From positions 62,001 through 126,000 of the forward strand of contig JABARV010000005.1 of NCBI GenBank assembly GCA_019186965.1: a stretch of 64,000 nt of DNA, read 5' to 3'. The stretch comes from Turneriella sp. (GTDB lineage Bacteria; Spirochaetota; Leptospiria; Turneriellales; Turneriellaceae). Under the pieces are notes generated by a model. It was not told where the DNA came from, ran no database searches, and saw only the letters and a program-made list of their open reading frames with translations. Position numbers and translations under genes: made by a program. This document shows positions 29,500 through 30,917 of the stretch, one piece after another; within the stretch, counting starts at the first letter, position 1, and every line of letters starts with the position of its first letter.

Positions 29500-29718
29500 A
29501 TGCTGAAAAAATTATTAGCATTACTGCTCGCACTCACTTTCATCGGTGGCGTAGTAGCGCAAGACGCAGAAGCAACTTCAGAAGAAGCGCCTGCATCTGC
29601 ACCTGCAAAAGACGACGCTAAGCCAGCGAAAAAAAAGAAAGCGAAAAAAGCAAAAAAGCACAAGAAGAAGCGCAAAGCTAAAAAAGCTGCCGCAGAATCT
29701 GCCGAAAACGGAAACTAA
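29500..29718 (+). CDS. Small secreted lysine/alanine-rich protein
   Basis: A 72-residue protein with a clear signal peptide (MLKKLLALLLALTFIGGVVA, cleavage before QDAEA). The mature peptide of about 52 residues has an acidic/Ala/Pro first half (ATSEEAPASAPAKDDA). A run of Lys-rich repeats follows (KKKKAKKAKKHKKKRKAKK) and a neutral tail. The ribosome site AGGAG lies just upstream and a terminator follows, so it is a real single-gene unit. Such low-complexity cationic peptides could bind acidic polymers such as LPS, peptidoglycan or nucleic acid in the periplasm, but no function can be assigned. Confidence 0.75.
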   Translation: MLKKLLALLLALTFIGGVVAQDAEATSEEAPASAPAKDDAKPAKKKKAKKAKKHKKKRKAKKAAAESAENGN

Positions 29719-29762: not shown

Positions 29763-29812
29763 CATCGGGCTCCGTTTAGGTAAACACCTTTATGGAGTCC
29801 CGATGACTTTTT
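29763..29812 (+). terminator. Terminator after the lysine-rich gene
   Basis: CATCGGG-CTCC pairs with GGAG-T-CCCGATG (one bulged T) around a 20-base loop and is followed by ACTTTTTCC. The right arm overlaps the last codons of the convergent gene that ends at 29790. Confidence 0.7.
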
Positions 29813-30512
29813 CCTTAAATAACTTTAACACCTCGAAAATTTTAATCCTTTCTGCTTCTATCTGCTCTTTTGGGTATTTTTTTGTTCGCATATATTGTAA
29901 CCTGTTGGGTCCTGGGCATACCACCGTTGGTAGGCTTTGCCACGTAAATACCTTCCCTTGTAGTTCCAAAAGCTCTTTTTTATCCCTAAATACAAAAGCT
30001 GCCGCCTGCCCAAAAAGAATAATTCCTTTGATTGAAAACTTCTCGATGTCGCTACGCACGTGGATTTGGCAGTTTTCTACTTGTTCAACGGTTCCTGTTT
30101 CATCCATTGAGAAATGGCAACGCAAAATTTCGCGTACAAGGGCATTTTCGGCACGAAACCCCAAAACTCCTTCAACCATTTTCTCGAACAAACTATTTTC
30201 TGCTAAGTCGTTATAGAATTTAGCTTTTGGGCCTAAAAATGGATTATGGACAAGAAAAAGGTATGGTTGCGAAATTCTATGGAAACCAAATTGCTCTTTT
30301 TTATAAGAAATTCTACGCGCACATAACGTACACGCATTTTTATCAAACTTACGTTCAATAACTTTTTCAGATACAACTGGCCTAAAAGAGAGCTTTATTT
30401 TTTCGGGTTCAAGCTCTTCATCGCGACGCCACAGAAAAAATCGACGCCCTTTTAAAAGACGCAGGGCGTCTTCTAAAATTTCACTGAGTTCGGGATAGAG
30501 ATCGACGCGCAA
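29790..30512 (-). CDS. Divergent Fe-S uracil-DNA-glycosylase-like protein
   Basis: Of 240 residues, four Cys have the exact pattern of family 4 uracil-DNA glycosylases: Cys61-X2-Cys64, then 67 residues, Cys132, then 15 residues, Cys148. The known [4Fe-4S] enzymes use C-X2-C-X68-C-X15-C or close variants. YLFLVHNPFLGPKAKFYND lies where the catalytic GEAPG...ED motif should be, and KGIILFGQAAAFVF matches the core strand and helix (IVALGxxAA). CPGPNRLQY stands where HPSxxL is expected. The fold therefore fits but both active-site motifs are altered, so it may bind DNA without standard excision or act on another substrate. The TTG start directly follows the stop of the DksA-like gene. Confidence 0.55.
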   Translation of the reverse strand: MRVDLYPELSEILEDALRLLKGRRFFLWRRDEELEPEKIKLSFRPVVSEKVIERKFDKNACTLCARRISYKKEQFGFHRISQPYLFLVHNPFLGPKAKFYNDLAENSLFEKMVEGVLGFRAENALVREILRCHFSMDETGTVEQVENCQIHVRSDIEKFSIKGIILFGQAAAFVFRDKKELLELQGKVFTWQSLPTVVCPGPNRLQYMRTKKYPKEQIEAERIKIFEVLKLFKEKVIGTP

Positions 30513-30917
30513 TTATTCGATTTCGGGTGCGCGTGTTTGCATTCTACGCTTACGTTGTAATTTGTCGAATATTTCTTGCGCAGCAAGTGTCCGTAACGCT
30601 TCGGGAACAGCTTTTAGGCGTGCCTTATTAATAACTTCGCCAGTATCGACACAAATTCCATACGATTTTTCTTTAATACGTTTGAGCGCCGCGTCAATTT
30701 CTTCCAAACGCTCACGATCGCCTTGCGAAAGCGACATTTTAAGCTCACGCTCGATGAGTTCGGTCGCAAGATCGGCCAAGTCGCCCACGTCCTCTTTTTC
30801 ACTTGAAGTTAATTCGTCTTCTTTACCTTGGATTTCTTTGATGAGTCGAGCCTTTTTCTCTGAAAGAAGCTCTTTAAATTCGTTCAGCTCTTTGGCTGAA
30901 AAAGGAGATTTTGCCAT
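30513..30917 (-). CDS. DksA/TraR-family protein lacking the zinc cysteines
   Basis: A 134-residue protein with the DksA layout. A long antiparallel coiled coil (about 8-85) carries the tip-region phrase DVGDLADLATELIERE. A short C-terminal domain (about 86-134) includes YGICVDTGEVINKARLKAVPEALRTL, which aligns with the DksA zinc finger YGxCxxCGxxIxxxRLxAxPxAxxC. Only the first Cys is kept; the other ligands are Thr, Leu or Ala. DksA proteins bind the secondary channel of RNA polymerase and modulate rRNA and stress promoters; zinc-free forms are known. It is co-directional with the UDG-like gene, whose TTG start abuts this stop. Confidence 0.82.
   Translation of the reverse strand: MAKSPFSAKELNEFKELLSEKKARLIKEIQGKEDELTSSEKEDVGDLADLATELIERELKMSLSQGDRERLEEIDAALKRIKEKSYGICVDTGEVINKARLKAVPEALRTLAAQEIFDKLQRKRRMQTRAPEIE

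Follow-up and report, generated by a model that had tools for sequence, protein, structure and literature searches.

The closest described relatives of the protein analyzed here are the family 4 uracil-DNA glycosylases (UDGs; UdgA), represented by TTUDGA (1ui0/1ui1), TM0511 (1vk2), and the S. tokodaii protein (4zby). These combine the UDG fold with a spacing of four cysteines like that of the UDG-like Fe-S protein of Turneriella sp. (hereafter UDGL), and family 4 is the closest profile family to UDGL among NCBIfam models. The two differ in the pocket, where family 4 has GE(A/G)PG, Asn, and HPx and UDGL has VHN-x, Glu/Asp, and GPx, and UDGL scores below the curated HMM cut-offs. UdgX (6ajo), a covalent uracil-DNA-binding UDG, is likewise an Fe-S UDG with an altered motif A and is the best structural match to UDGL, tied with family 4. 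Unlike UdgX, UDGL has no motif-B His and lacks both GEQPG and the KRRIH R-loop (15 residues separate C132 and C148), which rules it out as a UdgX. Mug/TDG and SMUG1 (families 2 and 3) resemble UDGL in having Asn at the third position of motif A, and Mug/TDG also in doing without the motif-B His; to our knowledge, these families have no Fe-S cluster. Their G-x-N-P-G motif A is not kept in UDGL and their fold matches it less well. Lastly, the canonical UDG linked to priA in Treponema-like spirochetes (e.g., L145 and L162) shares with UDGL the ancestral locus 5' of priA and the C-x15-C spacing but, unlike UDGL, has intact GExPG, Asn, and HPS.

UDGL lies in the window, the whole stretch of 64,000 nucleotides that was analyzed. 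The order of this genome is referred to as Turneriellales and the rest of the class Leptospiria as Leptospirales (order labels were deduced). Two genes are central, given in window positions:

29790..30512, minus strand: UDGL, the gene of the UDG-like Fe-S protein, an open reading frame of 240 amino acids with a TTG start
30513..30917, minus strand: dksA-like gene directly upstream of UDGL, adjacent to it in 15 of 15 Turneriellales loci

The reading frame proposed in a preliminary description of this DNA is real, and its start abuts the stop of the dksA-like gene (the coding strand reads TAATTG, a gap of 0 bp). Just downstream of UDGL, on the opposite strand, is a short open reading frame (29500-29718, plus strand). 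The start of its product resembles a signal peptide, and the tail is very rich in lysine and alanine.

UDGL belongs to a largely unannotated family of orthologs that is core to the entire class Leptospiria. A family profile matched all 30 good genomes from the class, with essentially one copy in each; outside the class, only two sampled Spirochaetota genomes match the profile at E<=1e-8, and weakly. None of the Leptospirales members tested had a convincing Pfam or NCBIfam match. Pseudogene decay is ruled out by dN/dS of about 0.07-0.12 in close ortholog pairs and by the occurrence of the gene in every good genome of the class. Near their C-terminus, some Leptospirales orthologs (loci L023, L025, L028, and L030) have a long insertion that is charged and coiled-coil-like.

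The relationship of UDGL to UDGs is weak by single-sequence HMM, in which the best matches were Pfam UDG (19.2 bits; curated cut-off 24.3) and TIGR00758, the model of family 4 (27.4 bits; curated cut-off 125.3), whereas by profile and by modeled fold it is firm. With hhalign, the Turneriellales family matched the canonical family 4 UDGs of the class at an E-value of 5.9e-8 (probability 94.7; <1 for reversed and shuffled negative controls). Leptospirales members had no significant match to these canonical UDGs (E = 0.17) and did match the priA-linked UDGs. An AlphaFold2 model built from eight sequences (pLDDT 73, pTM 0.65) has the alpha/beta fold of UDGs and was matched by Foldseek to family 4 UDGs and UdgX with a probability of 1.00. 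VIA Z scores were 13.6 for UdgX, 13.4 for TM0511, 13.2 for TTUDGA, and 10.3 for Mug. Homology to Fe-S UDGs, as claimed in the preliminary description, is thus upheld by family profiles and by structural comparison, TTUDGA included, though UDGL itself falls short of the cut-offs of Pfam UDG and TIGR00758.

The four predicted cluster ligands are as follows:

30330..30332, minus strand: C61, predicted cluster ligand 1, Cys in 142 of 142 aligned sequences
30321..30323, minus strand: C64, predicted cluster ligand 2, Cys in 142 of 142 aligned sequences
30117..30119, minus strand: C132, predicted cluster ligand 3, Cys in 142 of 142 aligned sequences
30069..30071, minus strand: C148, predicted cluster ligand 4, Cys in 142 of 142 aligned sequences

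Their spacings (2/67/15) place the predicted cluster in the frame of family 4 and are nearly those of most priA-linked canonical family 4 UDGs (2/68/15), in agreement with the near identity of spacing noted earlier. In second canonical UDG copies of the class, the spacings are 2/68/21.

The pocket is where UDGL departs from known UDGs. In UdgX, E52 activates the nucleophile or water, and N91 and H178 hold uracil (PMC10359453). Pocket columns were read from an alignment of 142 sequences, and functions were assigned by UdgX numbering. The replacements in UDGL are:

30243..30248, minus strand: H89-N90, replacing E-A/G in motif A (E52 and Q53 of UdgX); His in 15 of 15 and Asn in 15 of 15 sequences of the order
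30129..30131, minus strand: E128, replacing the Asn that reads uracil (N91 of UdgX); 12 Glu and 3 Asp in Turneriellales, 19 Glu and 8 Gln in Leptospirales
29907..29912, minus strand: G201-P202, replacing His-Pro in motif B (H178-P179 of UdgX); Gly in 15 of 15 and Pro in 15 of 15 sequences of the order

Hence none of the three pocket features of family 4 is present: V-H-N-x stands for GE(A/G)PG with its catalytic Glu, Glu/Asp for the uracil-reading Asn, and Gly-Pro for His-Pro. GEAPG aligns to V88-H89-N90-P91-F92, and three MAFFT modes put the canonical Glu at H89, although moving one gap would put it at N90. Both motifs are therefore altered, as the preliminary description stated, but its account of motif B needs correction because the His column corresponds to G201 (of GPN) and not to C199. 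With respect to G-[IM]-N-P-G of families 2 and 3, Asn is present, Gly is absent, and Pro is variable. The combination of residues in UDGL is absent from all UDG family motif sets of PMC10359453.

Catalytic residues are exchanged in 42 of 42 class orthologs. In Turneriellales (n = 15), replacements are invariant, except that Glu and Asp alternate at the uracil-reading position. Leptospirales mostly have Tyr/Phe, Asn/Thr/Glu, Glu/Gln, and Ser at the positions of E52, 53, N91, and H178. The entropy of pocket columns in Turneriellales is 0.14, compared with 1.60 for random columns, and the fraction of random columns as low is 0.0001; in Leptospirales, the fraction as conserved as the pocket is 0.0027. 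Because conservation in the replaced columns far exceeds that in random ones, we conclude that the pocket was exchanged and is under selection, rather than abandoned or decayed.

Locations of UDGL and its relatives correlate with priA across the phylum. UDGL is directly upstream of priA in 13 of 13 Leptospirales loci examined, where the typical order is hprK, HPr, histidine kinase, sigma-54 regulator, UDG-like, priA, and fmt. In two genomes of other classes, a diverged UDGL homolog is located between an ntrX-like regulator and priA. More broadly, most of the sampled Spirochaetota that have a family 4 match carry a UDG-superfamily gene immediately 5' of priA, and priA was detected just downstream of the UDG in 57 of 65 further Spirochaetota loci that were read. 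Many Spirochaetota genomes have no family 4 match, so the link is not a feature of every spirochete. In most sampled genomes that do, the family 4-type UDG gene overlaps or abuts priA (L136-L175 and L106-L135), including in a 1.1 Mb Treponema-like genome (L162). A literature search, in which most subscription papers were outside reach, found no account of UDGL or of a udg-priA operon.

The state of the priA-linked copy varies. It is canonical in Treponema-like families, and 7 of the 14 canonical genomes examined yielded no other UDG-superfamily member. In other Spirochaetota families, it is without motif A, and the residue at E52 is Asn in 29 of 30 sequences. In eight loci (L139, L141, L143, L144, L149, L163, L168, and L171), erosion is irregular, with motifs lost and the four Cys kept. 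The eroded priA-linked UDG is the only UDG-superfamily match found in genomes G070, G316, and G332, which, judging from gene content, may be without ordinary uracil excision by this superfamily.

In a tree inferred without motif columns, the class orthologs fall into a single clade (support of 100/99), and no fewer than three changes are needed to account for where motifs are intact or lost; a second tree left out three very long-branched eroded sequences. In profile comparisons, the class UDGL family aligned best with eroded priA-linked UDGs (E = 2.9e-15) and least well with the second canonical copy (E = 4.5e-6). On these comparisons, UDGL is demonstrably a class-wide descendant of the family 4 UDG gene located just upstream of priA; it descends from family 4 yet fails the motifs that define that family. 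The genome of the window separately keeps a canonical family 4 UDG. Duplication of that gene as the source of UDGL is disfavored by its C-x21-C, versus C-x15-C in UDGL. The latter is common to UDGL and priA-linked UDGs, and profile distances and the tree also disfavor such a duplication. A third UDG-superfamily protein of this genome, on contig C10 (L032:1408-1995), has 195 amino acids with GQAPG...HPSP and scores 77.9 bits against Pfam UDG.

In Turneriellales, priA has other neighbors and no adjoining UDG, and the gene has moved to the neighborhood of dksA. Coupling to a DksA-like gene had been noted before, and it is conserved throughout the loci of this order: the gap is 0-9 bp in nearly all 15 and 90 bp in one, and the pair is kept even in loci otherwise without common surroundings. 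In-frame readthrough from dksA into UDGL (TAA, then an in-frame TTG) was considered and rejected since it is available in only part of the genus; we take the arrangement as translational coupling. The dksA-like gene is the only DksA-like match in the genome of the window at E<=1e-5. Its product has the coiled-coil tip DVGDLA (DxxDxA), but three of the four zinc-ribbon Cys are absent; it exceeds the cut-offs of Pfam DksA_N and zf-dskA and is under those of the NCBIfam equivalogs. The link to RNA polymerase suggested in the preliminary description is plausible through this neighbor, but adjacency to dksA is specific to the order, and the link to priA is older and wider in the phylum. In E. coli, the formation of new origins at R-loops relies on DksA as well as PriA (PMC6488371). 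By association, the two neighbors would point to one process.

We tentatively favor, at slightly under even confidence, the explanation that UDGL is a repurposed DNA-recognition protein that probably does not excise uracil and is tied to replication restart or transcription-replication conflict. UDGL would no longer excise uracil by the known mechanism, while the UDG scaffold and the Fe-S region would be used for DNA binding. The rewired pocket (H89, N90, E128, and G201-P202) would recognize an abasic site or a non-uracil base. Where forks stall or transcription and replication conflict, UDGL would then serve chiefly as a factor for binding or hand-over, in a pathway common to PriA and DksA. 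Several findings count against this explanation. Gene neighborhoods can persist without functional coupling, genomes with an eroded UDG do not always carry another UDG, which weakens the case for loss of uracil excision, pocket residues differ between Turneriellales and Leptospirales, so that the ligand need not be common to both, and in the model pLDDT is <50 in the cluster loops. A broader proposal is more speculative, though still a reasonable candidate: UDGL may constitute a functionally new family within the UDG superfamily, core to Leptospiria, with a pocket for AP sites or a non-uracil base in PriA/DksA-dependent restart. It would derive from a udg-priA operon spread across the phylum, where excision of uracil became dispensable several times.

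The main rival, which we consider somewhat unlikely, is that UDGL is an active DNA glycosylase of new base specificity, in which N90 would activate water and Glu/Asp128 would read a cytosine-like or other non-uracil base. Such specificity is consistent with the invariance of H89-N90 and G201-P202 and with a residue 128 that is always acidic across the 15 orthologs. N90 occupies the position of the catalytic Asn in motif A of Mug, TDG, and SMUG1, and families with GINPG/GMNPG use Asn there (PMC10359453). There is also a precedent for an acidic base-reading residue: UNG becomes a cytosine-DNA glycosylase when its base-reading Asn is changed to Asp (PMC11289083). However, the base-anchoring His of motif B is lost (Gly/Ser), the column of N90 varies among N/T/E/S/A in Leptospirales, and motif A is V-H-N-x, not G-x-N-P-G.

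Less probable again is that UDGL is a noncatalytic partner, structural or regulatory, of PriA and/or DksA-RNA polymerase, with its Fe-S fold serving as a scaffold and its pocket unused. Glycosylase motifs were repeatedly lost at the priA-linked position while all Cys were kept, and linkage to dksA or priA is invariant within orders, both of which favor such a partner. But a pure scaffold would not need pocket columns that are more conserved than random. That UDGL is a divergent ordinary repair enzyme, removing uracil or hypoxanthine with different residues beside neighbors that reflect only operon history, is very improbable: it has a UDG fold and other UDG families do use different motif residues, but Glu, Asn, and His have been replaced together and a canonical family 4 UDG is kept elsewhere in the genome.

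For a nearly unannotated core gene of the class of Leptospira, the analysis thus supplies a fold and an evolutionary origin and predicts a cofactor. Because glycosylase motifs were repeatedly lost beside priA and the Fe-S Cys never were, the role of the cluster appears separable from base excision, which makes Fe-S function in DNA glycosylases directly testable. The locus further hints that recognition of base damage may be connected, in a way so far undescribed, to the restart of replication.
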